A stretch of 50,345 nucleotides of DNA from Chromera velia (Eukaryota; Sar; Chromeraceae), in the NCBI GenBank assembly GCA_018398765.1, contig JAHBMJ010000331.1, positions 1 to 50,345 of the forward strand. The letters are read 5' to 3'. The notes below the pieces were generated by a model. The model searched no databases and was not told where the DNA came from. It was given only the letters and a program-made list of their open reading frames with translations. Made by a program: the position numbers and the translations under genes. Below are positions 17,235 to 45,652 of the stretch, in pieces. Position 1 is the first letter of the stretch. Every line of letters begins with the position of its first letter.

Positions 17235-20200
17235 ATGTCATCTCCTTCCGAAGCGGGAAGGGAGGAGCGTCCCGAGGAAGTGGAAGGTCTGACTGAATCG
17301 CAGGGTCATTCATTCGAGGTAGAAGACGGGATGGATGGGCACAGTGCAGGTGGAGATGCAGAAATGGAGGCACGAGATGACGTCCCCGGAAAAGACTCAG
17401 TCTGCGAGTCGGAGACGGGAGACGAGACAGCGAGAAAAGAGGAGGCACAAGTTTTGCAAGCGCCAGAGAACCAAGAGGCACCCAATCAGAATGCAGAGCA
17501 AGAGTGTCAACAAGCTCCAGCAGAGATGCCTGTGCCGACCCCTCAGATTCAAATCCGAACTCTTGTCATTGCACCCCGTCTCTGTGAGGGAGAGGAAGCG
17601 TATGTCTTCTTTGGCCCTCCTGTGGGAGACTGGGAGACGGAGGGCATGGTCATTCTGGAGAAGGAGACGGCAGAGCAGAACCAAGGGAGCGGGATGGAGA
17701 CGTTCTCTTGGCGGATTTCCTCTCCCGTCTCTGAAGTTCACGATAAGGCAGTTCCGTACAAGTACGTGAAGGTGCGCAAGGAGGGCGAAGAAAAGATTTA
17801 CGAGAGTCTGGGCACTGCCATTTCAAACCGTGTGCTCAGGTTTGAAAATGCAGACAGAACCCGGGAACATGAGATTTTGGATCCACCAATCGTGTGGTCT
17901 GACACGGACACCAAGGCGGAAGAGGGGCCTGTTCAGGTACATAGATTCTCTCTCGCTTTGCTTTCCTGAACTTGATTACCTCTTTCATTGAGGATTTTTA
18001 CCTCGCCATCCGTCTTCTTTTCTATTGTCATTTTTAGATCTCTTTCGATTTCACCGTCGACACTGTACCGGTGGGCCCAGAAGTGCCCCCCCTTGCTTCC
18101 GTACCTCTTTGCATGCAGCTGCAAATGTGCTCAAACACCCCCCTCCGTTCAACGCCATGTCTGCAGCTTCTCTGCCGTCTCTTCGGACTTCCCGATGAGG
18201 CCGCGGGAAGAGACGCAGGGGTGCGTTTGGCACTTCACGGTTGTGCAGTGATGTCACTTGCTCAGCGGTCGAGCAGCCGTCTCGTTCAGTCTGAGGAGAA
18301 GCTTTTGACCATTTCGGCAGAATCGAAATTTCTCGACGGCTTCATCGCTTTTCTGCGAAATCGGAGGGAGTCTGAACAGAACTCGGCATTTCCCTCTCAA
18401 GATTTGAGAAATTGTAAAGTTATGCTTTCCGGCATCGCGCAGAAGATCATTCTGGAGATTGAGCAGCGTGCGGTCTTCAGAGCGGCCGTCTCGTTTCCGT
18501 ACAGTCCAGGGTGCACTCCTTCATCTCCAGATTCGCCTGTGGGGTGTCTTCTGGGTCGTCTCTATGGACTTCTGCTCCTCGGGGAAAGGAAAATATTTTC
18601 TTCATTGAACGTGGAGTCCCTCCTGACCCTGTCGAGATCTCTTTGTCCATTTGCCGCAGTACGCCAAAAGGGTCTCTTAGGAGAGGGGGGAGAGAAAGAG
18701 AAAGAGGGCGCTGCAGTTCTCTTCCTCGAGACCCTCCAGGCAGAACTTGGTGAGAGGTTTGCGTTCATGCAGAGACAGGAACTGAAAAAAATGGTCGAAA
18801 CTCTCATATTAAAAGTGCATACTACGTCAAACCAGCCCGGCATCTCTGTCACTCTCTCGCAATTTACTCTGCGGCGACTCCTCCTTCGCACCACTTCCGA
18901 GGAGGGAGAAGACTTGAAGGCATGCCAACGCGTCGTTCAGGCCTCTGTGCAATCGTCACGAGGGGTCCGTGGGTGGGAGGGGGCTGGGGGCTCATATGGG
19001 AAAGCGGGTGACTTTCTGGGATGGCTGGGTGTGACTGGTGTGTGGACAGGGGAGGACGTTCGTCGATTCTGCTGTGGCGTGGGGTCCGCGGGGGCAAGCG
19101 TTGACTGGACGGGCGTAGTCGAGACTGTCAGAGGAGACTCTGTGTCACTGCGGTAAGTGGGTACGTCGCTGGATGGGTGGGGATAATCTTGTAAACACTT
19201 CGCGATGTGCGCGGGTTCATTTGTGGCGCCGCTTTAGAAGCCATCTCTTCTCCACTAGCAGCATTGCATAACCTTCGATCTTCTGTTCTTCTTTTCACCT
19301 TGTCTTCGCGGAAACCATTCCGTCTAGGAATGACCATACGATGTCTCCTCATGCGCTCTGCCCGCGTCTCTGCCTGCATTCAATTTGCATGCAGTTCTGT
19401 GGTCGCGTATCTCCTGTACTGCCGTCTCGCTTTCCCTCACCTCTGGGAGGGAGACGCCGGGGCAAGGCTGCATGCGGGTCTGTGCGTGGGTCTTCAGTCA
19501 GCAGGACCGGCAGCAGCGATATCGGCAGTGTGCGTGGCGATGCAGTTGAAGAATAAGGATGAGGTCCCGGCAGGCAGTTTTCCGGAGTTGTTGACGACGT
19601 GCTTGCGGGTACTTGATGGGTCCGTGTCCGCTGCCCTGTACAACAGGGAAGGAGAGAGGGGGGCGGAGGCGGTAGCCGAAGGTCTCCAGGTTGTTAGTGA
19701 TTGTGTGGCGGGACTGCTTCAGGTCGGTGACGATGATGAAGCGACGACATGGCACATCTGCCAGTATGCAGTCTGTTTGAAGGTGTAGGGGCTCTGGACA
19801 ATTAAAGTATGCTCTGTCTGTCTGTCTCTGTTCCTGCCTGTCTGCATGAAATTGCCTTTCGATTCCCTTTCTGGCTTCTCTTTCGGTTCAATTATCTCTC
19901 TGCCTTCCATTTCTCTCTCTAGCTTTTTTTTCTTCGTTCTTCGGTACGGTTCTTTTAATTCTCTCTCTGCCTTCCATTTCGGTCTTAATTCTTTTCGAGT
20001 GTCGGAGATTCATGCATGGTGTCACCAGGTGAGCCCCTTCTCCTTTGTCCTCCCTTCTCTTCTTCCCCGAACAGAATAGAAACCGGATCAAGGAAACACA
20101 TGTACGCATGCTTCTCTACTGTGCTCAATTGCAGAAGGAGTTCTCAGGTTTGTGGAAACGCGCATGCGATGTTCCCAAACCTGTGCTGCCGGGGTTGAGC

Positions 20201-21360
20201 TCGACAGCCGCTGTAGCATCCTGTCGTCAGGCACTAGAGACGGCGTTGTCGTTGTGCCGTTGTGTGGTGGCTGCTGTTGAGATGCTCCGGGGGTGCGGGT
20301 ATGCGGGGGGGCGTGCTGCAGATTCTCTGGCAGAAAGGGTCGTTGCTGAGTTGAAGAGCACTCTCGGGAAGAGGAAAGGAGGGGATGAGGGGGGGTTGGC
20401 CTCAATGAGCATGCTGAGGATCTCGGTGAACAGAGACAAGGCATTTCGGTATACCACTCTGTGCGCGACTCTCGTGCCTTTACAGTCAGACGGAGGAAAG
20501 GAAGCTGCAGACTTGACAAGGATCCGAAGTGCAGTGGGGCAGAGGTTTGCTGGCGAGCTGAGGGCTCTCCAGAACGAAGAAGCTCGGGTTCATGTTTTCG
20601 AACACGTACTCTCAGAGAGGGAGAAGGGGGACGTTTTCGCTTCCGAGGGAGCGAAGGACATTGTGGAAGCAGCAGAACAGGTGACGATGGAGACCCTTGA
20701 CTCTGCTTTGAGTACTGCAGGGGACACGGGGAACGAGAACATTCTGCAGAAGTTACTGGGCGGCTCTCTTCTCCAGAGGCTTGCAGGCGTCCTCTCAACG
20801 GTCATCGTGAGTCGAAAGATCAATTGACTAATTAGTTCTCACATCTTACTGGTATCTGACTCGATCGATCGTTGTCTCTCTGGGAGGAAGGGAGGGAGGG
20901 CCCCTCTCTTCTCGTCTCTTCTCTTCTCTTCTCCTCTTTCTCTTTTCCTCTCTTCTCTTCTCTTCTCTTCTCTTCTAGCGTCTGTTGTTCCCCTCTCATG
21001 TCCATCATGAGGCAGGCCAGTCGAGATAAAAAAGAGAGAAGGAGTGATCCTCTCCCCCCCTCCCCCCTCGTTTGAGTCTGCAGGAAAAGGGGTGGCCCCG
21101 AGAGGTTGCGTCTGCTGTCCTCCGTGGGACTACGGAGGGTCTGAGTGACGTTGTGCTGAAGCACGTGCTCTGGTGGCGCCCCCTCGGCGTCCTCTTCCGG
21201 TTCCTTCTCAACGACCAGAGCGAGAAAGGCCTCTCGAGTCTGCGCCAAAAGGTGGGGGGATGGGGGGTTTGGTTTGGGGGAGGTATTGTAAGGAGAAGAG
21301 GTTGATTGTGCAAACCTCCTTGAGTCCTGCTGGTGAGGCGCCACTCGGGCAAGAGAGATT

Positions 21361-21417
<57 letters not shown>

Positions 21418-24400: not shown

Positions 24401-27400
24401 TCCCTTCCTACGCTGACACGACTGCCATTGCGAGGGCGCTTGGCAGCCAGCTGCAGCAGCAGGGAGGGGGACGGAGCGGGTCCGGGCAGGCGCTGCGCTC
24501 TGTGTGTGAGGTGATGGGTGCGATTCGCGTAAGGGGGGAGGGAGATATTGAAGACCTCCACAACCGTCTGATGCTCGCTGCGTCTGTGAAGCAGAATGAG
24601 CTTTGTTGTCGGACTTATAGAGCGTGTGTGGAAGCTCTCTTCTCTCTCCGGGGGCCTTTGGAGGCTCTCTCCCGTTCCGCCTGCCCTCTCTCAAACTCTC
24701 TTCTTCTCTCTGTTCCATTCCCAAAAATCAAACAACCACCTGAAGAAGAAGAAGAAGAACAAACGGGGGCAACAAAAACTGGTCGTGATGGTCCCTCCTG
24801 CGTGGCTGTCCTCTGCTATGGGTGGGGGGGTGAACTAGAGGTCTGTCTGAGTGCGCCGCCATCTCTCGGAAGGGCGAACCAAAGAGACACACAGACAGCC
24901 GATGACTTCTCAGATGAGAGGGAAAATCCCCCCGCCGCTGTGGGGACTGAGACTGCTCTTCGCGGTTTGCGCGCATGGCTCCGTTCTGTTCACGATGAAT
25001 GGGAACAGTGTGTAGAGGAACTGCGCACACGTTTTCCCGTCTTCAATGCGCTCACAAACCGCCAGCTCGTCTTTTTGTCTGCCAAGCTTCCGTCATTTCT
25101 TCGAGGAGGGACGAGGGAGCAGCTGGTGCCGGAGGAGACTCACCAAGTCTGCCAGCTGTTGCACGTGGCTACAGCCGCATGCGGTGGGGCAGGACAGGGA
25201 GGACGGGGAGATGCACGTGACACAGGCATGGTGGCACGCGAATTGGCGCGGCTTCATGGGTATGTCACGTCAGACGTTGACATGCTGGGAGGTGGGGTGG
25301 AAGTTCGGGGAATTGGTTTGCATGGCGGATCTCAGCTTGCGCCGATCGACGTTGACGCCTCGCCTTTTAGGCCTGTGTGTGTAGAGATTGAAGACTCAGA
25401 GAGGGGCGATGGTGACTCGGACGTTGTGATGGTGGATGTATCTGAAGTCCAAATTCAATCATCTGCTCAGAGCCCTCGGGGGGGATTGACTGAGTCCCAG
25501 CTGGAATCTCTGAAGAGGTCGTGGGGCCTCTTCCTGAAAAGAATGAGAGCAGAAACGGACAGCCTGCCGCCCCCCCCAAAAGGGCAAAAACCAGACGGAG
25601 AGAGTGCCCTGATGAGCCTCGCTTCCCTCGGCGCATTCCTCCACCTCCTGCAGCAACAGAATCAATCAGAGACCTCGGCCTCTCCGTCTCCATCTGCGGA
25701 GGCCGCCTTGTTTCACTCAGGGGGCTTTGCGTCTTCCTCCCCCGTCTCGAGTGCTGCATCGCCTCCTCCTCTTCCTCCGTACATCCGGCGAAACAATTTG
25801 GTGTCCCTGGTCTTGTGCCCAAGAGACGCAGTGTACGCGGCCGTGCTCGGCCTCTGGGCGGACCTGCCCGGAGAGTCCCGCAGACTACCGCGGGGAGATG
25901 AGGTCTTCGTGTGCTCTGGTCACACAACCAGTCAGTGCAGAAAGGAGGGTGGGGACTCAGTCAGCTGCATGGCCGGTATGTGAAGGGTCTGTTTACCCTT
26001 TCAGCCATGCAGAGATTGTTTGAAAGCATGAGAGAGAGAGAGAGAGAGAGAGAGCCAATCCATGGATGGTCCTGTGAGGTGCGGTTTTGCTTGATTCAAG
26101 TTTTGCTTAATTGATTGGCGGGCTTTCTTGTGACCTCGAAGTAGCTTTCTTTTCTTTCACGTCTCTTTTCTTTTGCCGTCTTTGTCCATACTATATCCTT
26201 AGCATTTCCAAGTTTTGCTTCATGTGTCGACAATCGGATGTTGTGCCTATTCGTGGGCTTCGGTGACAGATTACCAATCAGGGTAAGTGATCTCGAATGC
26301 ATTATTCTCTAAATCCTCCCTGTGTGTCGGTCGGAATGCATGCATGCAGGAGAAGAATTGTCAGTCTTCGTCCGCCACGCTTTTGAAGGTCGCGGGGCCC
26401 TGTTTGTCCTCGTCGGAGTCGAGAGACTCTCTTTCGAAGGTCAGAGGAACCGCACCGCCGACTAAATTCGAAATGGATCCATCCGTGTGTCTCTGACATT
26501 CGTGAAACTTCGGACAAATTGTCTGTCTACGGTATGAACTTGATCTGATGCTCTGCTCAGGACGCCTTTCACTTTTCACTGTCACTTTGCGTGTGAGGCT
26601 CCTCACTTGCTTCCTACTCTATTTTTTTGTTGCAGCTGCAAAACATTGCAGTGACGCAATCGGGACCCTCACCGAAAGCCTTGACCATTCTTCCCGTCTC
26701 CACCCCCCTCTGGTGATCATCTGCCCCGTTGAGGACTCCGATTGCTCCCTCCTTTCCAGCAGATTCAACGACTGCCTCGTCCACACGCCACACAGCAGCA
26801 ACAGCAGCAGCAGCAGTGACTCCGGTCAACACGGAAACCTTGGGGTGGCGGGGGGAAGTCGAGGGGTCACTTTTGTAGAAGCCCGACAGGAGCAGTTGAG
26901 AGAGTTCCTTGCAGAGAAACTCCGATTCTCTCCATCTGTCCGTGACAGCTCTCAGCTCGCGTCTCCCCCGATTGTTGACGAGGAGGGTCATTTCTCTGTC
27001 CGAGTTGTTACGTCTGCAGCTGCGGGTATGGGAAAGTCCCTGCTCGTGCTGCGACGTGCAGAGGTCCTTGCAGAGACTCTCCAAGTGCCCTTTCGGAACG
27101 TGTACGTGAAGGTGCCCCTTCACGGCCGAGCTGTTGACGAAGAATCAGTCGTGGACAAATTGATCAGGCAGGACATTGCGCACACCCGTCAGGGGAACTC
27201 CCGGACTCCGCGTGTGCTCCATCTGGTGGTGGGCTCTGAGTGCACTGTGGGTGTGGAGCGTCTGTTGTTTCAACTGGTGGTGCTGGGATGTGTGAGGGAC
27301 TCGGCAGGGCGTGTGTGGACCTTCAGAAACGGAGATTCCCTCTTCGTCGAGTGCACTGCCGACCCCATAGCTCGAAAAGTTCACGAACCCTCCGTAGGCG

Positions 27401-30400
27401 CATGTGCCCGTGTGTCTGAACGTCGTCTGTCAGGTCTCGCAGCTGGCGGTCAGGTTGTGAACCTCTTTCCTCGGGTCGTCTGCAGAAGTCCCAGAGAGGT
27501 TCTGGAGGACCTGCGGGGGGGGAGGTCTCTGTCGTCTTCGTCTCTCGATTTGGGTTTCGATGGGGAAACTCTGAAGAATCGGGCACAGCTGCCTTGCCAG
27601 TACTTGTCCAGGTCGGCCAATCAGTGAAGCAACCAGTTGTTTAGTGAGATTGTCAGTAAAAAAGAAAAAGAGAAAGAAAGGGGAAGGAATGGATGAATGA
27701 AGGAGGAATTCCATCAAAGCGAGAAATTTGAAGAGCATTGGAGTAGGAGGGAAATCGACAGGCGAGAGACACACATAGTCTAGTTACTTGTTGACTGTCA
27801 GTCAGAAATCCAAAGGAGAATTTTGAGGTGCACGTCCTGTTGAATGCTCTTCATCGCTGCGTGCATGCATGCGTCGAATTCAGATACGAGGCCGGAGAGA
27901 ATCTGGACTACTATTCCTTCGAGCCCGAGCAGAGCTGGACTTCAGAAGCTGAACTGACCGCGTACGAGTGTCTGACGGTCCTCACGAACAACTGCAGCCT
28001 TTGCGACCCGACGTGGCGTGACCTTTCGAACTTCCTCTCTTTCCTCTACGAGCAGTTGAGCCGGTGCGAGGGGAATGTGTTCTGTCATGTCCCGGAAGAT
28101 CTGCCTGGCTTCAAGCAGTTTGTGGTTAGACACTTGATTCAGATGTCCAGGGACTTCACGATTGCATCTCTGACCGTGAATGACGATGCATTGGGGCCGT
28201 CACTCCGTCGGAAGGCAGAGGGAAGAGAAGAAGACGACGAAGACGAAGAGATGGTTGCTGCGGGGCAGCCTCGTCAGTCTCGTCCACCACTGCTGCAGGA
28301 GATGAGGAGAAACTGGGAGAGCTCTCCCCACCCTTACCTTTTCTTTAACTCGGACGGCACTTCTTTCTCTTTCCTTGGCATGACGGTTTCGAAGGCAGGC
28401 CACCTGAAGGACCAGCACGGAAATGTCGTGGAGGATCGCATCATGACCCCCGAACTGCGGAGGGCGCTGGATGACCAGTGTATTCAAGGAGTGATCAACC
28501 CTTTTTCGGAATCGTGTCGATTCAATGCCCTCGACAAGGCACAAAAAATTGAGGTCAGCCGGGGACATCAACTATTCGCCTTCAGCGTACGAAAGCACGA
28601 CGATAGCTTTTTGTTGATGCGCATGTATGCATTGGGATTTTTTTCGCAATTGTTTGCCAGCTTCACACCAGCTCTCTTATCAAACAATTCACATCGATTT
28701 GAGCTAGGGCTGTCAAGGAAATTTTTCTGACCGGCTTGACTACAGCAACGGACCGCATAGACTGCATGCGTCAAGTGATTTCAGTTGGATTGTAGCACCG
28801 AGGAGGAGCATTTGCTTGATCGAGATTGGCTTCAAAGCGCAAAGCTTCGTATGGCTTAACGTTTCTGATTTCTCCTGCATGCATGCGGTACATTGATTAT
28901 TTCCTTTCATGCAGTTCCTGGGGCGTGTGATGGGTCTTGACTACCCTCACGATCCTGACGAGAGATTCGAACTGACGGAGGACAACGCACAGAAGATGAT
29001 GGCTGTGGAGATGCGGAGACGGTGTGGGATCCCGGCAGTGACCATGGGAGAGACTGGATGTGGAAAGACTGCACTCCTCACCTACAGATCCGGTTCGTGC
29101 ACGGCTTGAGTTGGCGCTGAATTATTCAGCATAAGAAGAAACGAAACGGGTGTAGGAATGCAGGAATGCAAGGGCATTCATGCACGCTGTGAGAAGTCAG
29201 GGGTGCAAGGACGCACAGTACGGATTTAGGCGAGTGTCTGATCAAGGGGTTCAATGGTGCAGTCGTGCAGAATTATTCAGAAAGAGCAGCGGGAAACAGG
29301 AGAGAGGGATCGATGCGTGACAGTTGCATGTTTCTCTTCATTTGACAGGGGGTCTCTCTCCGGGGAAAGCGGCAGCGGGCTCAACCAATTGATATGTATG
29401 TATGTATGTAAACAAAAACGTGTCACTTCTACGCTCTCGACACATGACATTGTGTGCAGCGTTAAAGATGCCGCCTGGAGTGAGCAGCCTGGGGGACAGG
29501 GAGGCGCCGCCGAACTTGATCACTTTGAGAATCCATGGAGGCACAAAGGTTGATGACGTACGTCTTGTTGTTGAAATTGCTGAACAGCGGGCGGAGGAGA
29601 ACTGGAGGGAGTGGCAGATAGAGGAGACGACCGTGTTCTTTGATGAGGTCAGTGATCGAGGTGTTGTGAGGGGGTGGATCTCCATCGGCAGCTATGGATC
29701 GAGGGAAGCCTGGCTAAAGAACAAGTAATTGCGTGTCGGACAGACGAACCATGCAGGCGTTTGTGTGTTTCCAAATTGGCCTCGGAATGTATTCCGTTTC
29801 TTTTGGCTTGCCTGTCTGCCTGCCTGCCTGCCTGCCTGCCTTCAGGTGAACGCTTCTGACGAGGCTGTGGTTGGACTCGTGAAGGAAATTCTCTGCGACG
29901 GGACAGTCGACGGCCGTCCGATCAGGGGGGGTGTCTGCGAGTGGCAGTACAGGGACGGAGGGAGGAGTGCAGCCTGTGGTGGGGGGAATCGGATCCCGGG
30001 GTCTCTTCTTTTCTTTGTGGCCGCGTGCAATCCCTACAGACGGCACTCTGAGGGGATGATCCGGAGACTCGAGGAGGCAGGGCTCGGGTTCAACAAACCC
30101 CAAGCAGAGACAGAGCGACTCGGGGACACACCGCTGAGACACGTCAGTGAATGGGAGGGTGGAGAATTTAGAAGGGGGGAAATTCTGCATGCCGTGCATG
30201 CCTATGCGCAGGTGAATAGAGGGCGAAAGACAATTAAGGAAGTGGAAAGAAAAGCCTTGATTTAAGCTTCTGTGAAAAAGCAAGCTCAACTCTTTTCGGC
30301 AGAGCTCTCGAATCAGCGGAGCCCTTTTCAAATCCCTCTTTGCAAAAAACAAATACTGTGTGGAACAAGGTCACGGGCCGCATCCATGTGATTGACAGGT

Positions 30401-33400: not shown

Positions 33401-36400
33401 CAGGTCAACCGAGTGAAGGACTGCATGGAGACGGGGAAAACGCTGGTTCTTCTGAATTTAGAGACTCTCTACGAATCGCTCTACGATGCCCTCAACCAAT
33501 ACTTCACTACATTTGCAGGCCAGAGGTCAGCCGCTTGAAAGGGAAGAAGAAAGACGTACTCTGAAGGCTGCATGGGGGAAGCATGCACCTGTGTGTGTGT
33601 GTGAGGGAAAGCTGAGAGGGAAGATGCAGATCTTTACGTCCCTGCAGTTCCATCCGACGGGAGGGACCTTTTCGACAACACTGAAGATGTACGTCTGTCT
33701 CGATTGACTATCTTCTCATTCCTCTGTCTGTCTGTCTGTCTGTCTGTCTGTGTGCCTGCCTTTAATTCCCGACAGATACGTCGATTTGGGTCTCGGGAGT
33801 CAACGAGTGAAGTGTCGGGTCCACCGTTCCTTCCGTCTCCTGGTGGTGGCAGAGGCCTCCCGTGTGGCCGCTTACCCGATCCCCCTGCTTGGCCGTTTGG
33901 AGAAACACAGACTCACTGTGAGAGACCTCCTAGCGAGGCCCGCTCTGGCCCAAACCCTGCAGATAGCATCGCAGTGGGCGCGTGACTTTTCGAAACTTTC
34001 CATCAGACACCGAGATGTCCAGATGCGCATGCGGCCTTCAGTTGCAAATTCAATCGAACCGACACGCGCGTTCGCTTCATATTCTGAAGACACGCTGGCG
34101 GCGATTGTCCTGGCAGAAGCGCGGGATCTTGAAGAGTCCGAAGGAGACGATTTCAAATCTACGGAGGGTCTGTCTTTCGAGGAGAAACTCTTTCTGGCTG
34201 TGAAGAGACGGCTTCTTGACACAGCGCTTCCCGATGCAGTTCTGCGTCTCCCCTTTTCTTGTCTTGCTTTTCAGCCAGAGAAGGAGGATGTGGGGTCCCT
34301 ACAGGCTTCGTATTTCGACGACCCTTCTCATGGTAGTCTGGCGGGGGTTATTTGGCGTCTGTTGAATGAGAGAAAGGAGAGGGAACGGAGCCAGACCCCC
34401 TTTCTTTGTTCTTCTTCAAAGAGCGTCGACTTCTCTTTGATCACCACGAGGTCCCGTTTGGTCGTGCAGGAGGATTTAGAATCTGCGTTTACGTCTGCTC
34501 TTTCTCTCTCTTCTCCTTCTGGCGAGAGGTTGGCACGGTCAGAGTGTACCGGGCGGATCGTGGAGGTCTCCCAGTTCTCTGAGGAGACACAATTCCGACA
34601 ACACCTGACGAAGCAGGCGCTGCCGTCGCTGCTGGAACAAAATGAGAACCAGAACAGCAACTCGAAGGATCGGGATGCGTTCCTTCTCGTGCAATGCGAC
34701 GCCGCAGGGCGGGGGGCTTCCCATCTGTTCGCGTGTGTGCAGACAGTTCTGGAGGAGACGACAAGGGAGGCACTCGACCAAAAGGAGAACCTGAAGAGGG
34801 AAGGAGGGACCTGCCATCTGCACGTGCTTCTCATTGCCCGTCTCTCCCCCCCTGTGCTGGAAGAAGACGGCGAGTCGGAGGTGAGTGGGGAAAGTTCAAC
34901 TTCCACCTGCGGTCTGATGACTGCCATAGGAAGGGGGGGAGTCTGGAGGAGGGCGATCCATGTCGACTTCCTCACCCCCGACAGCTCCCCTCAGATGTTA
35001 CCGCCCCTGACACAACTTCGGACTCTCTCCATGGCAGAGACGTGGCAGGCTGCAGACCTATCACAGCAACGGTCTCTTCTCAGATCCTGTGCGCATGAGG
35101 CGTGCACCCGCATGGCCCCGGGTGCTCCCTCGGCATCGGCACAGAGGGGAGCGGCAGGGCGTCTGCGTTTAGAGATTCTCCTGGAGATTACAGAGGAAGA
35201 AGAAGGAGAAGGCGAGAGAGCCCGACAGGGACTCGGAGCGATTGGCAGAATCGATTGGCAAAGTCGTCTGCTGAGACTGCTCTGTCAGGCGGTGGGGACT
35301 AGACTCATCAGACGGGAGGAGAACGTAACGCTCGCAAGTCCGTCCGTCCAGCTCGATCGACTGATTGTCGGAATTTTGATTTGCAAATTAAGTGCTTCAA
35401 CCCTGTTGTCATTTGTCATTTGATCAATAAAAATGTCCTTCCTTCACCATCGGTTGCATGACAGTATATGAATCACCTTTCCAGCGACAGGTTTCTTTGG
35501 TGACACAAACACAGGCAGAAAGAAAGAAAGCGATTGTGAATGGGGCCCTGCTAAGACGACGCCAAAAACTTTTTTTCCCGTGCGTTGCTTTTGTTTCTGT
35601 ACTTTTCTTGTAAAGGGACCATGCACCAATAGGAAGCGTGTCTTCTCTCGTCTCTGTCTGTCTGTCTGTCTGTCACCTTCTCGTGTCGTTCTCTGTCTGC
35701 AGCTGGGAGACGGAGCCAATGGGTTTCTCTGGCAGCTCTGTCGTCCCTTCAGGGGGTCGGCGGCAGGTTTTCTTCTTTTTCTTCTTCTGGTGTTCATCTG
35801 CAGCTGCAAAGAGCGGAGCGGTGCTTCTCTGAGGCGATGCTGCAGGCTGTGCGGACAGAGATGGCACCGCAGCTGCGGGACGTGGTTGAGGTCCTCGACA
35901 GACAAGCAAACATGAGGCTGGCAGGGAGGGGGATGATGCATTTTGAGTTGTCAGTCAAAACAAACATGACCTTTACGAAGACAGAAGCGAACAGTGGTGC
36001 ATGTGAAGCATTTAATTCTCCTCACTCACCTCATCCGTGCTCGTGAATTCTTTCTCCGACGGTACATGTCCTCTTCTTCCATTCTTCTTTTGACTACTTT
36101 CGCTCGAGGTCAACGCGCGCCGCAATTGATGGACACACAACCCTTCCTCCTTTCCTTCCCTTTTCCCTTTCTGTTTGCCTGAGTGGTGCCTGTCTGCAGA
36201 GGGGCTCAGAGGGAAATTGCCAAAGGACTTCCCCGGTGGTCAACGGAGGTCTGGTTCCGTCTTGCTGCTGTGGAGTTGCAAGACTGGCGACAAGGAGGGG
36301 GGGAGGCGGAGGCGGTCCAACTCGTCTCATCTGTCCCTGTCTCGTTTGTGCACTTTCCCTTTGCATGGAGAGTCGCGGAGGTTTTGGACACTCTCACAGC

Positions 36401-39400
36401 GGAGGCGGGGGGCAGTGGCGGACTGCCTCTACAGAGACGGGCATTGCTTCTTGGTCAGAGCCCCCTTGGTTCTCTTTTGAGTCGTGTTCTTCTTTCACCT
36501 GAAGACCTGGAGGAGGGGTGCAAAATTCTCGGGAGAGATCTGGTCTTGCTTCGTGTCAGCGAGATTTCTGGAGTGCCCAACGAGACGGAAGTCCTCGAGG
36601 CGGCTGTGGCAGAGGTCTTTGAGGGTGCAGACAGAAGGCTGACAGGGGGGGGAGAGGAGATGCAGAGTATGACGGATCGCCTTGAGAGCCCTCCTTTTGT
36701 CGAGAACTTCTGTGCTCGACTAGTCGCTGCCTACGAAGAACTGGTGGTGGGCCGAGTCGCGCAGGGGCTCCGGCATGCTGCTATCCTTCTCAAGGCAGCC
36801 CACGCTGTGCTCCCATCTTTCCTGCTTGTCCAGGAGGATGAGGCGGGCGCACGTGGGGAGGGAAGGGAGATTTCCCAACGTGTCCCCGGTAGTTTTGGTC
36901 TGTTGGTTGCGACGTGCATCGTTCGTCGGCTGCAGAGCACATTTGAAGGAGAGAGAAGTCTGAAGAGCCTTACAGAGGTCGCGGAGTGGGTAGTTTCGTT
37001 GGAGAATCCGGTTGGGGCCCTTCTTGCACATTTAGGAGGGGAGAAGGGGAGTACCTCCTTTAGAGTGCGTGCTCTGTCGGCAGGTTGGGAGTCTGTGCGA
37101 GTCTGCGCTCTTCTTGCTCTTAGGGCAGCTCCTGAGATGGGCGCATGTCTGTTCAGGAATTTTCCTGAAGAGAGAGGCGGCCTCAGGAGAACGAGACTGG
37201 AAAGGCAAAAACAGTGTGCAAAAATTGAAGAGGCGGTAGCAGCAGGCATGAGAAGACTCATTCATGAACTGCCAACCAAAGTCCAAAATTCAGAAGCAGC
37301 GGCAGCAGCGACTGTGGCGTCACCAGATGACGTTGCCCTCCTGCGTCCGTTTTCTCTCTCCGTCTCTGTAGTGGAGGGAGTTGAAGGGGTTCTGAACGAC
37401 GCAACACACTCAATTGAAGAGTCAGTGTATCAGACAGAGTGACCGTCCTCTTCAGTTCTTCCCATCTTTTGTCTTCGATTCTTTGAATCCCCCGGAGTGG
37501 AACGTCTTCTTACAGACGGTCGTCTCTCTCCTTTTTCTTTCACTTTGCATGACTCGTGTATACCTCGTAGAGTAGAGAGAGGAAGTGAATAAAGCGATTG
37601 ATGCATGGCACCCGCTCCCCTCCCTGCATGAATTGACCCTCTCGTGATGAGGGGATGACAATGTGTTTCGTTCCCTCTCCTCTCCTGCATGGATTATGCA
37701 GAGCCGCTTTCCAAGGAGGACACGACGCGGCACTGCCAGCCGCCTGCGACAGGTGCGGAGCCATGACTCGTGCGTTTGTGAAGTTGCAGCGCTGCAGTCA
37801 CTCTGTATGCCTCGACTGTCTCCAAGGGGAAGAGGCCGAGAGTGCTCCGCGGAATGTGTGTGGAGTGGGGGGGTGCGGAGAGCGTCTGAGCCCCCTCCAG
37901 CGGGAGGAGGTGAAGAGAGGTCTCGAGCGGCGTCAGAAAGTTGTGGCGGCATGGCGTGCGGTTGCTACCGACTTCTTCACGGACTTTCTCTCAACGTCAG
38001 TGAGAGAGAATTCCATCCAGAGTCTGTCAGATGACAAGGAATGAAGGTTTATTTTATTGTCGGCCTAGCTGTCTTGGACAATAAATTTGGCATGCAGGGA
38101 GTGAACTGTCCGTCCCCACAAACAACCGCTATCCCTCCCGTTATTTCTCGTTCATTGCCCGAAGCTCTCCTTCTTTCTGTGCATTTATGTTGAACATCGT
38201 TTCTCTGCAGGTTCATTTTCACCCACGAGGGGCCGTCAGGAGACGACGCGGAAGCGCTCAGGGCTCGCAACGCAACAAGAGAGGAAGTAGAGGCGAGGAG
38301 ACATCAGAGACTGCATGCGCTCCTCCGGCATCTCCTGAGACACGTCGGAAGGCAGGAGGGGGGAGCTGCTCGGGGTGCAGACGTGCATGCTGAGGTCTTC
38401 TGCGCCCTTGAGTCATCCCCTGTTGTGAGGTCAGCATGCAGAGAGAGTTGCTTCCTGGGGGGGTGATCGATCGATCGATGTTTGGTTTTTGTCTGCCGAC
38501 TGCATCTTGTAGCTTTGCAGCCCGTCTTTCTTTCATTAGCAGTATTTGTCTGTAGAGCTGTGGGCTTTTGTTTCCCTCATTTCTTTCTTTCTTCCTTGCT
38601 TCCCCCTTCCCTCCCTCTGCCTCATTTTTTCTTTTGTTTTCTGTTCTTGCTTCCTTTCTATCTTTGTGTCGATCTATTTAGTGCCTGCCTGCCTGTCGTC
38701 TGTTCGATCGGTCGATTCGTCTCGTCACGTCTGTCTTTCACCCTGATGATCTCTCCCTCTGTGCTGTGCTGCATGTGCATGCAGATCCTTCCTTCTGCAA
38801 CTTGTTCTCCGGCATGGACCCCAACAGGATTCTGACCTGATTCCCCTTCTGGGCTTCTGCCTTCAAAGCGCGGAGGCCCACATAGGCTCGGAGGGGGGAG
38901 GAGAGAACTGCAGCAGGGAAAGAGGGGGGCAGTCGCTGCGGCCTCCAGTTGCACTCCGACGTTTGTTTGTGGAATGTCTGGAAGGAAGAATCGAGGAGAG
39001 CGTTCAGCAGTCCTCCATTTTCTCTTCTCATTCTGGTTTTTCTGAGGGGGCTCACCTTGACGAGGTTTCTCTCTTGAAGGTCGCGAAGGTTCGAGAGGCT
39101 CTAGACCGGCTGCAGAGGGGGGAGGCTCAGGGGGGGGGCGGGGGGTCAAGTGCAGAGAGGGAAGCGTCGGGGCTTCTGAACACTGCATTGGTTCGTTTCT
39201 GCCTCGGGGTCACTGCAGAACTTCTCTGTGATCGGTTTCCTGAAGGCCCGCATTCTGCTGACGGTGGTGCGGGTGTGTTGTCTGAAGCAGAGAAGAAGCT
39301 CTTGGAAGGGGTGCGGGCTGTGGTTTCTGGGAGACGTCTTCTCTTGGGTGTTTCCCCCGGTTGGGCTCTTGTGTTTCTGATGCGTCTTCTGTGCAGACAG

Positions 39401-42400
39401 AAGAGTGTTGTATGGTGGAGGCAACTGAGTGCGCATCCCTCGCTGAAGTGGATTGCCCCTCAGTGGGCAGATGCACAGAGCGGGCAGGGTGGGGGAGATG
39501 AAGCGGACCTGTTTCTGCTCGAAGGAGAGCCCCAAGATCCAAAAGCTGAGCGGACAAAGACGATCGGGCAGAAGTACGGGACGATTCGGGATGCCCTCTC
39601 AGAAGCTCTCATGAGAGGACAAGCATCTGTGCTCACTGATGCACTCACTGCCTCTGACGGTTTACAGGGCACGGAAGGAAACGCTGCCGCAGGCCTACTA
39701 AGAGCCCCTGCGTCGACACAGCTGCATGAGCAGGAGAAGAGGTTCACGCTCGGTCTTGCAGCTTGTTGGAATGCCGTGAGGACCCTTCGAAGCCTTCAGG
39801 AAGGGGCAGCAGACGGGCAGGAGAGACGTCCTCATGCTCAGGGAGAGGGGAGGGGGAGGCGTGAGGTCTGGCAGTCAGTCGAGGCACTGCTCTCGGGAGG
39901 AATGGAGGGAAGTCAGGGTGGTGTGGGGGGGATGCATTTGGCATCTGCTGCAGGCAGTGGGAACATGGACGACGTAGAAAAAGGGGGGGCGGGTGCTTTT
40001 GATGCCCAAGTTCCGTCTTCCTCTTCCTCTAGAAGACAGCGCCGTCGTGAGTCGGCGTTTCACGGAAGGGACGGGGAGAGCGAAGAGACTTTTACACCGG
40101 TACTTCCGGGCCGACTCTCGCCCCTATCCCACTTGATAGAATTCTCAGAGAGGCAGAACACAGTCAGAGTGCACGAGCGGAGACAGGCCATGGGCCCGGT
40201 CCTCCACCTGGGCTGTCTCCTGGCGACTCTGCCTGATGATCGTGAGGGGACGAGGGGGAGTGGAGGGGGGGGTAGAGGGCGGTCACAGGTTTTGTTGCAC
40301 CTCGCTTCCACCCTGAGAAGATTGTTCGAGAATCCAGGGACTGCGCGGCAGCTCTTTCTTCCGGGAATGGAGGCAGACGTCTCGGGGGTGGCGTTGGACA
40401 GAGGGGTTGTGAGCGGCTCCACGCAGTCAGTCAGTCAGTCAGTCAGTCAGTCAGCGCTCAGTCTAGCTTCCTAATCGGCCTCCCATGAGCACTTTTCATA
40501 TCCCCTTTTATCCGATACAGTTTGCAAACGAAATCTCTTTGCTGAGAATGCACGCGTTTTTGCATGCAGCGTCTTGTGCTGAGGCTCTTGCCTGATGCTC
40601 CCTGCCTCCTCATACACCGAATGGACCTGACGCTCCCTGCTTGCATGCATGCATGAATGCAGAGTGTGTGCGTGTCCGAACACTAAATGCGGTGAACCGT
40701 ACCACGTCGGCGACTGTGGACAACTAAACGGCACCGGAAAATGCTCGGTCGGTCGGTAGGTAGGTCATCAGAGAGCAAAAAATGTCAATCGGGCCTACTG
40801 CCGGGAAGAAGTACCGTGGGTCGTGAGAAACAGATGCGATGCTGATCTTCTCTTCAAAAGTTGGGCTTCATACTCCCTATAAAGTGTTGCATGGCAAAAG
40901 GAAGGAAGGAAGGAAATAATTCTGAATGTGGCTGCTTGATGATCTGCTCCCCCCTGTCTGCCTGCAGCATTGCGGAGGGCCGATAGGAAGGGGCACTCGT
41001 TCTCAGGTCTACCAGCGTGCGGCCAGACACGACTCGAAAGGGCATACCTGCGGGGGGGGCGTGGCAGCACAAGGGGAAGTGGCCAGTGGGAGTGCCCAGA
41101 GAGCTCTGCCGGCGTCCGTCTGCCTCCGGAGGCTTGTCACTCACTGTGTCCTGGCTGCTGCGGCGGCACGGCACTGGCAGGGCGCGGCGTCTGCAGTGAA
41201 CCCCCTTCCCGGCACTACCCCTCTGAGGGCTCCCCTTCAGTCTGAGGGCGAGACTGTTGGGTTCTTTTTGGATCACGTGAACGCAGATGCTCAGAGAATC
41301 GCAACGAGTCTCCGTCTGCCTCCTGACGGGGCCTTCGTGCTCCTGCATTCCGTCATAGGGGAGTGGGCATCGTGTGTGCTTGGAGGGAGACTCGGCTGTC
41401 GATCAGATTCTGGTCTGAGGGAGGGGGACGCGAATTTGAACGGCAACCGGGTGGGTCTGGAGACAGAGACCGGAAGGGAAGCTTGGGATCGCGTGTTCAT
41501 GGACGCGATAGGAGGAAGGGCCTTGGGGGGTGCACAGGGGAGGGTGGAGGGATCCCGGAAAGTCCTTCTGGCCGACGGCCGTTTGACTGGAAACGTGATT
41601 TTGAGGGTTGTCTTGGAACAATCCGATCCTCCCTTCTCGTCCTCTTCCTCTGGAGCGTCCTCTAGTTCTCGGGGGAGACAGTACGAGGCAGAGGAAGGAG
41701 ACGGTACGCTGTGGAGGTATCGGCAGGCTACGGGCGTGGAGACGGCAGCAGCTGAGGTGGAGACGGCAGCAGACCGGTGGAAGTCTTCTCAGGAACAGTC
41801 ACGAGGGGGGGGCGCAAGAGGGAGGGGGAGAAACGGAAGCAGCCACCGAGTGATTCACTTGGACGGCGACCCTTCCCAAAGTGCGGCTGAAGGTGGAAGA
41901 CGAAACGGATTTCATCTGGCGCCCCTTCAACTGGCTTTTGCGAATATGCATTCTTTCCGCCTACGTCAGTCAGTTCACTTCTTGGAGCTTAGGAAGGGGG
42001 AAAGATGCTTCTTTGTCCCGTTGCATCTTCTTTCATTTCATTTGTTTACTGACTTATACAGTCTGGCTTTGGTTTGACCAGGCAGGGGAAGGAATGCGAG
42101 AGGGATCACGATACTTGGTCGATCGATCGATCGATCGATAGAATTGTCTCCGTCGCAGAAACAAGATATGCCGAAATTCCATCATGAATGGAAGTGTTCC
42201 TTCCTTCCCTCCTTCCTTCCTTGATGCTCCGTCTGTTCATTTGCTGCCGGTGGGTTTGCAGTGGGTTTGATGCCCTCCGTCCTACGGCTCGTCCGCTTCG
42301 TTAACGCGGCAGCTGAGAGGTCCGGTGCGAGACGTGATGAAAGTATGGTTGAGTGGATGGACATCGATTCAGAAGGCTCAGTTGAAAGAGAGCACAGAAG

Positions 42401-43508
42401 AAGTGCTGCAGCAGCAGCAGCATCAGTGAGGCTCTCTGTGAGGGAAGCGGCGTCGACCCGTCTCAGTGCACTTCTGGGGGATGCAGGGGCGCCGTTCAGC
42501 TCAGCTGAGAGTGCCTTGGAGGCGCATCGGTTGGTGAGGGATGTTGGGGCAGCTTTGTCTCTGGCGTGTTGGGGGTCCCCTCTTCGGCCCGGCGGGTTGA
42601 GGTCTCACCGGCTTTTCAGTTCCGGGGCCCTCCTGAAGGAGGGGGCGGTGGATGTTGCACTGGCGGCGCTGAGGGGGCACGGAGAGAGAGACGGGGCAGG
42701 TGATCTAGATCCGTTTGTGGGTTTCCTGATGCCTCGACGCAAGGGGCAGGGAGCAGTAGTCCTCTGGCTGCTTGACTACATGGCTGCTGTGCACAACAGG
42801 TGCGTCGGATGGACTCTCAGGATGAAGATGAGGGATCGAGAGAGCAGAAAGCAGAGAGAGACCTTTGTGACAAAAAAGGGCACAGTACATGCATGGATGT
42901 TTGACAGTAGTTATCAGTCGTTCAAATGTCAGGCCTGTAAGTGTCGAATGGACTGCATGTGATTTTGCTCTTTCATGAGTCTTCACATGATTGGCTCTCC
43001 GTATTTGGGGGTTGCCTTTTTCCCTTCTTTCTTGCTGCCAGTGGTGGGGCTTCTGCATTTTTTTGTCGTGTTGAGGATTCACTCAAACCTGAGGCTGAGA
43101 TGCGTGAACTTGCACTGCTCTCTCTCATGTGTGACTGTATGTCCATTCTGAATCAATCCACTCTGCTGATCTCTCTTCCCTGTTCATCTCTGCAGCTTTG
43201 TCGACGCCTACTCTGCCGTGGCAGCTCCTGCTGGGCTTTCGTCTGTGCCGGGTGCGGCAGGTCGAGGCCAAGGGAGGGCATCGGGGTCCTCTGCAGGGGG
43301 GCAGTGGGAGAGGGGGAGCTGTCTGGGTGTGCTGTCTTCAGGAAAGGGGCCCGGGGGCGGGCGACAGGAGGGTCATGGCGAGGGGCACTGCCTAGCACTA
43401 CTGGTTGCAAAATGCAGGGAGCACTCCGTGAAGGTGGGCGGGCATGTTGGCGTTCTTGCTTTCTCTTGTAGTCCCTGTCTGGCTCTATGGGTGTGTATCT
43501 CACCATGA

Positions 43509-43557
<49 letters not shown>

Positions 43558-45652
43558 TCTGTATGTATGTGTGTGTGTGTGTGTGTGTGGTGATCGGGAT
43601 GAGGGCTTTGATGATAGAGTGTCATTGGTGGCGCTATTGTCGCAACTTCTTTTTCCTGCAGAGTTTGTCGTTTTTCCCCTTCCTGTCCCCTTTTGAATCA
43701 CTTGCTCCTCAATTCGTGCCTTTCTGTACACGTGCGGTGCAGGTGGCCTCTGGAAGCGGTGGCACTGCATCGTCATCGTCTACCTCGGGTGGACGTCTTT
43801 CCGGGGTCTCCCTCTTTTCTGAGTCTGCCTTTGACCTCCTCTCTCTCCAGAGAGCAGTGCACGAGGGTCCTCTGAAAAACGGGAAGACGCCATCTCTCGA
43901 CAGGCGGGCTCTCGTGGAAGCATCAAGAGGGATCGCGTGTTCCTCCTCTTCCCTCTCAACACCGGTTGTGTCATCTTCATCGGCAGGTCTCCCTCCTTCA
44001 GTGTCCCTCTTCTATGAGTTCAAGGAGGACGCCCACGGACCTGCAGCTGCCACCGCGATCGAGGGGGCTCTTGAGAAGGCGGCGCGCGCTGTGCCTCAAA
44101 GAGCCCTGCCCTGGTGCCTTGTGTCCGCACTTCGTCGTGTCTGCGGGCTAAAGCGCGGAGTCCCCGCACAGGAACTTCTCCAGACTCTGCAGGTGCGTTC
44201 GATGGGCCGGCCCCCTCTTTTCCTTCCTTTAATTCCTCTGTTGCGTGCCTGCCTGTCAGGCTGCCGGACTCTCTTGCTACCTCAAAGGAATATTCGATGA
44301 GAGCATTTGTGCAGAGATCTTCAAATGAAGACAGTCATATGCACGTCGTTCTGATTCGGCATACTTTTTTTTTTTCTCTGTAATGGAGAGTGAGGAAGTC
44401 AGACATGATGCAGTCATAACGTTGGTAGGTGGTGCTGCGTGTCTTCCTTCCGAGCGCAGGCCAGACAGATAGTTCTTTCGTCCGATCGCTCCAGCCAAAT
44501 TGCAAGAATCACAAAGAGACCCGATCTCATCTCCTTGCCTCATTCCCTCCCTCACTCTCTCCTTGTTTCTTTCTTTCTATTAATCGTTCTCAATTGGCGT
44601 GCGTGCAGACGACCCTCCGACTCCTCCCGGCCCTCGGGGGTGACCCTAAGGAATCTCTCGTGTGTGCCCTTAGAAGACTCCAACTGCTCCGGCAGCCTCC
44701 CAGGGCTGCGAACACAGAGAGTGGTCAAGTTCGGTCGGGGATGAGGAGCAGCAGCAGTCAGACGGCGAGGCAGGACGACAAGAGGGAGAGCGGGAGACGG
44801 CAATTGGGGAGGGGACAGGTTGAGTCTGAAGGGGGTGCATCATCATGTGAATCTGCTTTGGAGGCTCTGGAATCTGCTCTGTCCCGTTCTCTTGTCGGAA
44901 GGCACAAAGACGGACCGCCAACGGCACCCGTCTCTCTCTGCCTCGGTCATGCAGGAGCACTAGCAAGTCTTTTGGATTTCGTCCTCTTCTGTGGAGCCTC
45001 CGACGGCGGTGTGGTAAGAGGGGCCACTGCGGCTGCGGCCGCTGGTTCCGACACGGTGAGCGGAGGTCGACAGTCGTCCCTTCGAGTGAGCGTGGATGTG
45101 CTGCCCGAAACCCTGGGAGAGCCACTGAAGGGTGGGGCCGAAGGGCGCCTTCGTGAAAGACTGATGAGAGAAAGCGAGGCGGTCCGTCTGACGGTCGCCT
45201 TCTCCCTCCATGAAGTAATCAGAAGAAGACTTTGGACGGCGGCGGAAGAGACAGAGTCGGTCCCTGCTGTGGTTGCGGGGAGGGTTCAGCAGGTTGATGG
45301 AGGAGAAGTTCAAGTAGAAGCGGAAGGGGAGGCAGAGCGAGATCCCTCGCTTGCTGGCGAGGTTAGTGCGTGGCTTGACGTGCGGGGGGGGCAAGAGGGT
45401 TTGTTTTTGTCTCCGGTCGTTGAGGAGGTGCGAGCTCGGCCTGGGGAGATGGAAGTTCAGAGGGTGCTTGCAGCTGGAGCAGTCGCCGGAATCTCTGGCC
45501 CTGACCCGTTGGTATCGGTACCAGGGTTGGGGGATGAGACTCTGTCGTCGGACTCCCGTGTAATCAAATTCTGGGAGTCCCTGCAGGATGACAGGGAGAT
45601 TCTTGTCAAGCATGCTGCGGGTGCTCTGAATGTTATCGTTTCACTGCTTTAG
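17235..45652 (+). CDS. RNF213: Giant RNF213 (mysterin)-like AAA+ ATPase / E3 ubiquitin ligase
   Basis: About 32 exons, about 6,480 residues (human RNF213 is about 5,200). Exons: 17235-17936, 18038-19152, 19395-19782, 20135-20806, 21084-21251, 21539-21939, 22284-22713, 22875-22980, 23165-23803, 24194-25930, 26350-26439, 26636-27611, 27884-28553, 28915-29092, 29460-29647, 29846-30142, 30487-31369, 31608-32589, 32969-33254, 33404-33525, 33776-35324, 35804-35949, 36200-37420, 37702-37995, 38211-38429, 38785-40425, 40663-40747, 40968-41964, 42262-42799, 43196-43433, 43743-44192, 44609-45652. All joins are phase-consistent. Order: CBM20-like, helical arm, AAA+ core, RING, RZ finger, C-terminal region. 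In animals RNF213 is a cytosolic ligase active on lipid droplets and bacterial surfaces; its role here is unknown. The exon 7 end and the exon 21/22 join are uncertain. ATG 17235 is the first in its frame. Long linkers are Ser/Gly/acidic low complexity and explain the extra length. Confidence 0.85.
17550..17900 (+). other. CBM20-like domain of the RNF213-like protein
   Basis: Residues about 106-222 follow an acidic, disordered leader. The pattern LVIAPRLCEGEEAYVFFG, then GDWETEGMVIL, then SWRISSP and VPYKYVKV, matches the starch-binding CBM20 fold seen in animal RNF213, in particular the PYKY strand. It lies wholly in exon 1. CBM20 domains bind alpha-glucans; binding here is inferred, not shown. 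Confidence 0.65.
18038..26439 (+). other. N-terminal helical arm (exons 2-11)
   Basis: Residues about 235-2150 are Leu/Ala-rich helical sequence without motifs, equivalent to the stalk or arm of RNF213. Exon 10 (24194-25930) holds an acidic insert, DSDVVMVDVSE, which resembles a SUMO-interacting motif, and Ser/Pro-rich linkers. Its end (RRLPRGDEVFVCSGHTT), joined to exon 11 (EELSVFVRHAFEGRGALF), matches the segment just before AAA2 in animal RNF213. That match fixes the phase-1 join at 25930/26350. Confidence 0.6.
21362..21417. repeat. (CA)n(GA)n compound microsatellite
   Basis: About 15 CA units run directly into about 13 GA units in intron 5 of the RNF213-like gene. The architecture is the same as the tract at 13911-13968. 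Confidence 0.95.
26636..28553 (+). other. AAA2 module, Walker A only
   Basis: Exons 12-13. Walker A AGMGKS is encoded at 27022-27039 (about residues 2279-2284), in VVTSAAAGMGKSLLVLRR. The place of Walker B reads RVLHLVVGSEC with no Asp-Glu pair, so hydrolysis is unlikely. This fits the animal protein, where AAA2 is thought to bind but not turn over ATP. Downstream, NWESSPHPYLFFNSDGTSF and FKQFVVRHLIQMSRDF match conserved RNF213 segments. Confidence 0.75.
28915..31369 (+). other. AAA3 module, Walker A and B intact
   Basis: Exons 14-17. Walker A GETGCGKT lies at 29047-29070 (about residues 2743-2750), after RRRCGIPAVTM. Walker B FFDE (about 2817-2820) ends exon 15 exactly at 29647; exon 16 continues with NASDEAVVGLVKEILCDG. 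AACNPYRRHSEGMIRRLEEA supplies the sensor region. Exon 17 gives LVYRVCALPPSLASLVWDFG. All are signature RNF213 blocks. This ring position should hydrolyse ATP. Confidence 0.9.
31608..32589 (+). other. AAA4 module, Walker A and B intact
   Basis: Exon 18. The Walker A has the family's odd form GRPGSSKS (31661-31684, about residues 3232-3239). Walker B is VLDEVALAE, with Asp at 31889-31891 and Glu at 31892-31894 (about 3308-3309). Sensor 1 is NWAVDPAKTNRG, near 32035-32070. GLRDFWALIKMMKEIARR matches the helical lid. It is the second module expected to hydrolyse ATP. Confidence 0.92.
32969..35324 (+). other. AAA5/AAA6 region (degenerate ATPase modules)
   Basis: Exons 19-21. YLLVITENYSALDIL opens the module. 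The short exon 20 (33404-33525) encodes VNRVKDCMETGKTLVLLNLE and then LYESLYDALNQY, both strongly conserved in RNF213. Exon 21 continues with YVDLGLGSQRVKCRVH and PIPLLGRLEKH. No Walker motif is visible, as expected for these modules. Exon 19 has Ser and Gly homopolymer inserts (33080-33122). Confidence 0.8.
33721..33752. repeat. (CTGT)n tetranucleotide tract
   Basis: About seven CTGT units lie in the intron before exon 21, close to the acceptor, and probably form part of its pyrimidine tract. Confidence 0.85.
36200..37420 (+). other. E3-module helical region before the RING (exon 23)
   Basis: Residues about 4243-4649 are helical, with WFRLAAVELQDW, VENFCARLVAAYEELVV and KQCAKIEEAVAAGMRRLI. 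They sit where animal RNF213 has the hinge and E3 shell between the AAA core and the RING. An Ala run (EAAAAATVAS) lies near the end. The donor GTCAGT at 37421 gives the phase-2 join to the RING exon. Confidence 0.65.
37702..37995 (+). other. RING finger exon of the RNF213-like protein
   Basis: A C3HC4 set is visible at 37745-37876: C4664-x2-C4667-x12-C4680-S-H4682-x2-C4685-x2-C4688-x13-C4702-x4-C4707. The last pair is spaced x4 instead of the usual x2. The exon continues with KVVAAWRAVATDFFTDFLST, matching the post-RING helix of animal RNF213. A RING normally binds an E2. In RNF213 the ligase activity is reported to depend less on it than on the RZ finger. Confidence 0.85.
40426..40454. repeat. 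(GTCA)n tract at a splice donor
   Basis: Seven tandem GTCA units begin exactly at the proposed donor of exon 26. Every unit offers a GTCAGT donor, so splicing here could slip by 4-nt steps. The phase-2 join at 40425 is the one that gives the RZ-finger frame. Confidence 0.6.
40663..41030 (+). other. RZ-type zinc finger split over exons 27 and 28
   Basis: Exon 27 (40663-40747) is only 85 nt and encodes VCACPNTKCGEPYHVGDCG, then QLNGTGKCS. Exon 28 (from 40968) starts HCGGPIGRGT. Joined in phase 0 they give the RZ pattern: CPN, then G-x-CG, then C-S-H-C followed by GGPIG. Candidate ligands are C5371, C5376, H5381, C5385, C5394 and C5397. In human RNF213 the RZ finger is needed for ubiquitylation of lipid A. 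The order relative to AAA core and RING is the same here. Confidence 0.85.
42262..45652 (+). other. C-terminal region of the RNF213-like protein (exons 29-32)
   Basis: GLMPSVLRLVRFVNAA and DLDPFVGFLMPRRKGQGAVV match conserved C-terminal RNF213 blocks, as do HCLALLVAKCREHSV (exon 30) and LRLLPALGGDPKES (exon 32). Exon 29 has an Ala-rich GCA repeat (42408-42426). The last 250 residues (Gly/Glu-rich) do not resemble the animal C terminus. The stop is TAG at 45650-45652. Confidence 0.7.
43510..43589. repeat. (GT)n(GA)n(GT)n microsatellite
   Basis: GT repeats, then a short GA run, then GTAT and GT repeats, in intron 30 of the RNF213-like gene. Confidence 0.95.

Follow-up and report, generated by a model that had tools for sequence, protein, structure and literature searches.

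A predicted RNF213-type giant AAA ATPase/ubiquitin ligase gene in a photosynthetic, probably alveolate, eukaryote

Most descriptions of RNF213 (mysterin) come from vertebrates, where it is a risk factor for moyamoya disease and a ligase that attaches ubiquitin to bacterial lipopolysaccharide by means of its RZ finger; the protein coats bacteria as well as the vacuoles of Toxoplasma, and selection on its CBM20 region is strong in simian primates (PMC11549300). In the mouse protein, ATP is bound at AAA3 and AAA4, and these two sites govern the E3 half (PMC12075652). RNF213 has been called conserved in vertebrates (PMC7311170; PMC4632019); an expansion has been reported for symbiotic bivalves (PMC9993606), and a study of cnidarian immune cells lists it with other immune effectors in a comparative section (PMC13319465). 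The same kind of RZ finger is present in ZNFX1, which is an RNA helicase (PMC12075652), whereas the gene described below has an RNF213 core. Among the matches listed in our literature search, no protist RNF213 was indicated by a title or the start of an abstract, and we regard the protist gene, with its variant RZ finger, as new within an already known family and of evolutionary interest.

We analyzed a contig of 50,345 bp (hereafter, the window) and read the plus-strand locus at 17235..45652, with a probability of about 0.9, as one nuclear gene predicted to encode an RNF213-type giant AAA ATPase/ubiquitin ligase of a photosynthetic and probably alveolate eukaryote. The predicted protein shares with vertebrate RNF213 the sequence and order of AAA2–AAA5, the nucleotide motifs of AAA3 and AAA4, a putative RING, an RZ finger with its nucleophile cysteine, a C-terminal block and likely a CBM20-like N-terminus. 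It differs in its greater length (6,555 aa in the model against 5,207 in human RNF213; PMC4632019), in a stalk that cannot be aligned, in the C-x4-C spacing of the last RING pair, and in an RZ finger that is split by an intron, has a changed zinc ligand and lacks the histidine at the position of the general base.

In six-frame translation, long plus-strand frames are densely packed from 17.2 to 45.65 kb, and the final model joins them into 33 exons separated by 32 introns of 48–416 bp, from an ATG at 17235 to its sole stop, which ends at 45652. The exon chain was produced by our own Viterbi script followed by hand edits, with the openness of the frame and the splice consensus thus partly built in. 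Two intermediate models were replaced: the first, of 38 exons, missed the RZ exon, truncated the Walker A motif of AAA3 and started too far upstream; the second, of 41 exons, came from a retrained run that favoured the start and four splice sites, and it also truncated this motif and contained exons of 1–22 bases. The final list was set manually, guided by homology at AAA3, AAA5 and the RZ finger. Relative to the first model, the start codon, exon 14, exons 19–21, the RZ exon and the ends of exons 16 and 27 were changed, small exons at 29.2–29.4 kb and a 51-bp intron at 36.45 kb were removed, and a single merged exon at 43.2–43.5 kb was adopted from the second model. The end of exon 27 lies inside a GTCA repeat, where the phase was picked among several to suit the RZ finger.

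Introns of the model mostly have GTC donors (GTCAGT, GTCAGC) and TGCAG acceptors, the latter often within GCATGCAG. The script learned its own splice sites, so the following statistics are partly circular: the acceptor was TGCAG in 29 of 32 introns, against a background of 118 among the 2,123 AG dinucleotides of the region, and donors had C at position +3 in 21 of 32 cases, against 33% of all GT dinucleotides. Two sites set without the script fit the same pattern, namely the end of exon 16, which was positioned by homology (the donor there is GTCAGT, the expected GTGAGC being absent), and the RZ exon, which the unforced script missed and which is bounded by TGCAG before and GTCGGT after it. 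The extent of the gene proposed in the first-pass annotation, with phase-consistent exons on one strand over 28 kb, was thereby confirmed at the level of the model.

Our analysis indicates that the predicted AAA2–AAA5 core is of RNF213 type and, according to the gene model, lies in one chain. Single exons gave nothing over the cut-off against Pfam, and the sequences of solved structures were the informative probe. AAA2 with the insert that follows it (26986..28553, plus strand) carries a Walker A-like AAGMGKS at 27019 and is colinear with RNF213 from AAA2 onward: a piece of 815 aa spanning AAA2–AAA3 matched RNF213 with E=2.2e-102, the alignment covering 767 residues of the query in a single stretch. 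AAA3 (28915..31369, plus strand; exons 28915–29092, 29460–29647, 29846–30142 and 30487–31369) has the Walker A motif GETGCGKT at 29047, the Walker B motif FFDE from about 29630, and AACNPY at about 30014. AAA4 (31608..32589, plus strand), with Walker A GRPGSSKS at 31661, Walker B VLDE at 31877 and ISNWAVDPAK at 32027, matched RNF213 with E=4e-61. Alignment to RNF213 indicated that both Walker motifs are kept at AAA3 as well as at AAA4. The AAA5 region and the sequence beyond it (32969..35337, plus strand) include TENYSAL, NRVKDCMETGKT and YVDLGLGSQRVKCRVH; its three exons lie at 32969–33242, 33404–33525 and 33776–35337, the joins of the first two were judged by eye, and the third exon matched RNF213 with E=2.8e-18. 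In these searches with AAA2–AAA3, AAA4 and AAA5, all listed chains other than RNF213 had E values of at least 0.086. AAA4 was 45.7% identical over 254 columns, and AAA3 40.6% over 347 columns, to the corresponding vertebrate pieces (chains 9jw1 and 9jwg, labelled human, as their numbering parallels that of human 8S24). The initial assignment of the core to RNF213 was therefore upheld by searches at AAA2–AAA3, AAA4 and AAA5.

The same genome contains relatives of this core. Three queries (AAA4 of the window and the loci on contigs C3877 and C1056) returned the same four loci, some of which were recovered only at E values of 0.002–0.03: the window itself (C330), C3877:42000-61999, C2302:5000-14999 and C1056:10001-20000. 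Contigs C3651, C3967 and C3474 gave weaker matches, once each, with E values of 0.05–0.25. The three relatives are divergent, both among themselves and relative to the window gene, with which they share the AAA3 and AAA4 blocks in RNF213 order; C3877 matched RNF213 with E=6.5e-21 in the solved-structure search. Among seven frames of the relatives compared with Pfam, AAA domains exceeded the cut-off for C1056 and the other matches were below it. A coarse pattern scan detected no RING or RZ finger at 14 loci, taken around the relatives and on contig C1374; it also missed the real RING on C1374, so its negative outcome carries little weight. No close relatives were found in the scans of IMG/VR and GTDB genomes, and the NCBIfam search gave nothing useful.

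Over 440 trimmed columns, the window core and human RNF213 were 51.6% identical. The identities of the window core to C3877, C2302 and C1056 were 30.5, 32.3 and 38.6%, and those of the human sequence were 26.8, 33.4 and 39.3%, respectively; because these values are similar, the three relatives appear to be about equally far from the window gene and from human RNF213. The five-sequence tree did not join the window and vertebrate sequences and was not resolved, its two internal splits having bootstrap values of 77 and 60.

The best reading of these data is that a true RNF213-type AAA ATPase/E3 occurs outside animals, which suggests, and does not prove, that the RNF213 machine arose before animals. 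The 51.6% identity of the core, the common splice style of the exons and the three divergent relatives in the genome make an ancient origin plausible. The comparison covered human RNF213 and the four loci of this genome, with a tree that did not resolve them, which leaves some room for an old horizontal transfer of an RNF213-type gene from an animal, without any pre-animal ancestry. A long residence is suggested instead by the presence of four diverged members of the family in a single genome, and the 33 exons share one splice style; we therefore consider such a transfer unlikely.

Beyond the core, the E3 half is, as far as its sequence can tell, RNF213-like but divergent, with matches that are weak and ordered. 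The piece of 2,171 aa behind the core matched RNF213 with E=0.018 to 0.076 (cyanate hydratase followed with E=1.8), and a shorter piece of this half gave E=0.025 to 0.031. In one alignment, four stretches follow one another as they do in RNF213: the block ahead of the RING, the RING and its FFxDxxST tail, the RZ finger plus some 120 further residues, and a PRR(K/R)G...HN block close to the C-terminus. Taken alone, each stretch is weak (−1.7 to 9.5 bits), and the half was assigned to RNF213 because the four of them keep the RNF213 order. The original claim that the RING, RZ and C-terminal blocks follow the order of the animal protein thus holds for their colinearity, whereas the strength of the individual matches remains low, with an overall E of 0.018.

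The pre-RING block (35703..37420, plus strand), which contains PFAWRVAEVLDTL, is the first colinear stretch and scores −0.3 bits alone. The predicted RING (37745..37876, plus strand) reads C-x2-C-x12-C-x-H-x2-C-x2-C-x13-C-x4-C, followed by FFTDFLST beside FFVDLVST of RNF213. All eight ligands are present, at the right place after the core, and Pfam RING_5 scored 17.6 bits (E=0.0039; cut-off 27.9). In the solved-structure search, the RING exon alone matched Hakai (E=0.2) and did not match RNF213 at E<=10. Strict RING and RZ patterns gave no match in the unspliced window, in the case of the RING because of the C-x4-C spacing of its last pair. The C-terminal block (42262..43490, plus strand; exons 42262–42799 and 43196–43490) aligns DLDPFVGFLMPRRKGQG...AAVHNSFVDA with DLDTEFEILLPRRRGLG...RLHNEIVYA of RNF213 and is the fourth stretch, with 1.6 bits alone. 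The last two exons of the model (43662..45652, plus strand) would encode a C-terminus rich in low-complexity sequence; they gave no match in a search that covered all but the final 307 residues of the protein.

According to the model, an RZ finger that keeps the nucleophile cysteine is located downstream of the RING. Its first part (40667..40747, plus strand), CACPNTKCGEPYHVGDCGQLNGTGKCS, includes GDCG with the nucleophile cysteine at 40709, and its second part (40968..40994, plus strand), HCGGPIGRG, follows a 220-bp intron; the exons extend over 40663–40747 and from 40968 onward. The spliced RZ sequence matched Pfam PF20173 with 22.5 bits and E=8.6e-5, below the curated cut-off of 27. This score alone is insufficient for an RZ assignment, because the sole PF20173 match listed in the unspliced genome-wide search (C1374:17740-17838; 22.8 bits) reads as an ordinary RING; the window, whose RZ finger is split by the intron, is not listed in that search. 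The assignment therefore rests on the VG(D/E)CG core and on the colinear match to the RNF213 RZ finger, which scored 12.9 and 9.5 bits in two alignments of the E3 half. An RZ-like core pattern, which was written after the hit, has a single occurrence within the gene region, compared with 0.003 occurrences per shuffle in 300 shuffles.

Using the residue numbers of the mouse protein from PMC12075652 and the letters of our E3-half alignment, Cys4451, Cys4462 (the nucleophile), Cys4471 and Cys4474 are all matched, with GDCG in place of GECG. Three of the four zinc-ligand positions are kept, and His4455 is replaced by Cys or Glu, depending on the placement of a gap. The general-base histidine (mouse His4483) becomes arginine in the model (GRGTR compared with GGLNH); a neighbouring frame reads GHSF at this position, so an error of the model or the assembly is possible there. 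This catalytic residue did not serve here to define the family.

Exons 2–11 (18119..26439, plus strand) occupy the position of the stalk without a sequence match to the RNF213 stalk; residues 377–2284, which make up most of it, had no RNF213 match at E<=10, and their fit to the stalk is one of position and length. AAA2 starts near residue 2,270 of the model and near residue 2,023 in chain 8s24. The helical arm proposed in the first-pass annotation thus found no sequence counterpart within residues 377–2284, and the description of the architecture as complete was overstated, given that most of the stalk is without an RNF213 match, the core was traced from AAA2 to the AAA5 region with no separate AAA6 distinguished, and one catalytic residue of the RZ finger is not in place.

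A CBM20-like domain at the N-terminus of the predicted protein (exon 1; 17544..17846, plus strand) is moderately supported. In an hhalign comparison with four CBM20 domains of the same genome (six loci were fetched, and two with in-frame stops were excluded), exon 1 aligned with a probability of 84% (E=7.4e-6; 74 columns, 28% identity), whereas all three control segments of the same length from the same gene gave 0.1% or less. Weighing against this part of the earlier proposal are a Pfam CBM_20 score of 13.7 bits (E=0.055), below the cut-off of 23.3, the lack of a solved-structure match for exon 1 at E<=10, and the absence of the window among the 101 matches with E<=1 of a genome-wide CBM20 search. 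AlphaFold modelled the region (139 aa, single sequence) with a pLDDT of 45, and Foldseek with this low-confidence model returned 28 matches, none with E<=0.001, among which a starch-binding domain at rank 14 (E=6.5) proves nothing. The genome-wide search also revealed contigs with two CBM20 matches on opposite strands, divergently oriented, about 1.5–2 kb apart and in frames of several hundred aa (for example, C1886:58913 and 60616, C1028:62062 and 63802, C917:105921 and 107669); these pairs are perhaps a gene-pair family or a mobile element.

The contrast between a well-conserved core and a more diverged E3 half is what might be expected if two adjacent genes had been read as one, and, as the gene is known from DNA alone, introns of up to 416 bp could conceal short intergenic stretches. 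Nevertheless, the model has no gap larger than 416 bp in 28 kb, all exons lie on one strand with phase-consistent joins, and the parts follow the order of RNF213, whose two halves form one chain. We consequently regard the two-gene reading as quite improbable and treat the locus as a single gene.

Judging from its gene content, the host is photosynthetic, which agrees with the plastid-bearing alga proposed initially: light-harvesting genes occur in the same genome. A genome-wide profile search gave 58 matches to light-harvesting proteins at E<=0.001 (40 contigs listed), and this profile matched one of 14 control genomes, that of a cyanobacterium. One light-harvesting protein matched best to long LHCI chains of 9vfj, followed by Lhcr, FCP and similar chains. 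The alveolin-type search gave 11 matches on 7 contigs, all of them over the cut-off; its control search also matched Caulobacter. The ISP1_C profile matched neither the genome nor any control genome. On the basis of these profiles, the host is probably an alveolate and perhaps a chromerid, and it is probably related to Toxoplasma and the malaria parasites.

Downstream of the gene, intergenic repeats are located at 46434–46665 and 47023–47373 of the window. They recur on at least 38 other contigs, with the longer matches 75–88% identical (40 of 625 candidates were scored). At 2189–3859, a frame of 556 aa ends in a sub-cut-off MYND zinc finger; among ten neighbouring frames searched against Pfam at E<=0.01, this finger and a DUF, also below its cut-off, were the only matches. 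GTC-type donors are unusual for animals. At the light-harvesting and alveolin loci, GTCAGT was more frequent than GTAAGT in five of seven cases, with one tie and one opposite case, all counts being between 0 and 3.

We take the contig as native to the alga. Had it come as a contaminant from an animal that lives with the alga, the gene would be uninformative on protists; the 51.6% identity of the core over 440 columns is about the level that might be seen in a distant animal (an estimate, not a computed value), and the 38 contigs that share the repeats do not overlap with the 40 listed light-harvesting or the 7 alveolin contigs. Opposed to this origin are the repeats beside the gene that are shared with at least 38 contigs, the mostly GTC donors together with the prevalence of GTCAGT at five of the seven host loci (0–3 counts each), the three divergent relatives on other contigs, and the distance of the E3 half from vertebrate RNF213. 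An animal contaminant is thus very unlikely.

Finally, a dynein- or midasin-type AAA protein merely resembling RNF213, the outcome that had been set in advance as contradicting the assignment, draws on weak Pfam matches to the dynein-related AAA_5 (13–15 bits) and is extremely improbable, since the solved-structure searches with AAA2–AAA3, AAA4 and AAA5 gave RNF213 and no dynein or midasin chain at E<=10.

If the algal protein works in the way known from RNF213, ATP binding at AAA3 and AAA4 would switch on the E3 half, ubiquitin would move from an E2 enzyme to the RZ cysteine and from there to a substrate, and the CBM20-like N-terminus may help the protein to settle on glycan-bearing surfaces. 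The likeliest targets in the alga would be the surfaces of intracellular microbes, or its own alpha-glucan or lipid bodies. By analogy, a function in defence at microbial surfaces can be put forward tentatively, control of the cell's own glucan or lipid bodies is a slightly more doubtful suggestion, and the remaining probability would fall to other protein quality control.

A member of the family in a photosynthetic protist opens the original task of RNF213 to testing in a cell that has no interferon, vessels or immune tissue, and the algal gene provides naturally occurring variants of the RZ active site and of the stalk. It is a speculative and rather unlikely scenario that RNF213 predates animals as an ancient eukaryotic marker of glycan- or lipid-covered surfaces with ubiquitin, and that a full-length copy, with an altered zinc site and without the canonical general base in its RZ finger, persists in a free-living relative of Toxoplasma along with three divergent relatives of the AAA core. 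If this were true, the lineage that is now attacked by animal RNF213 would descend from ancestors that owned the same weapon.
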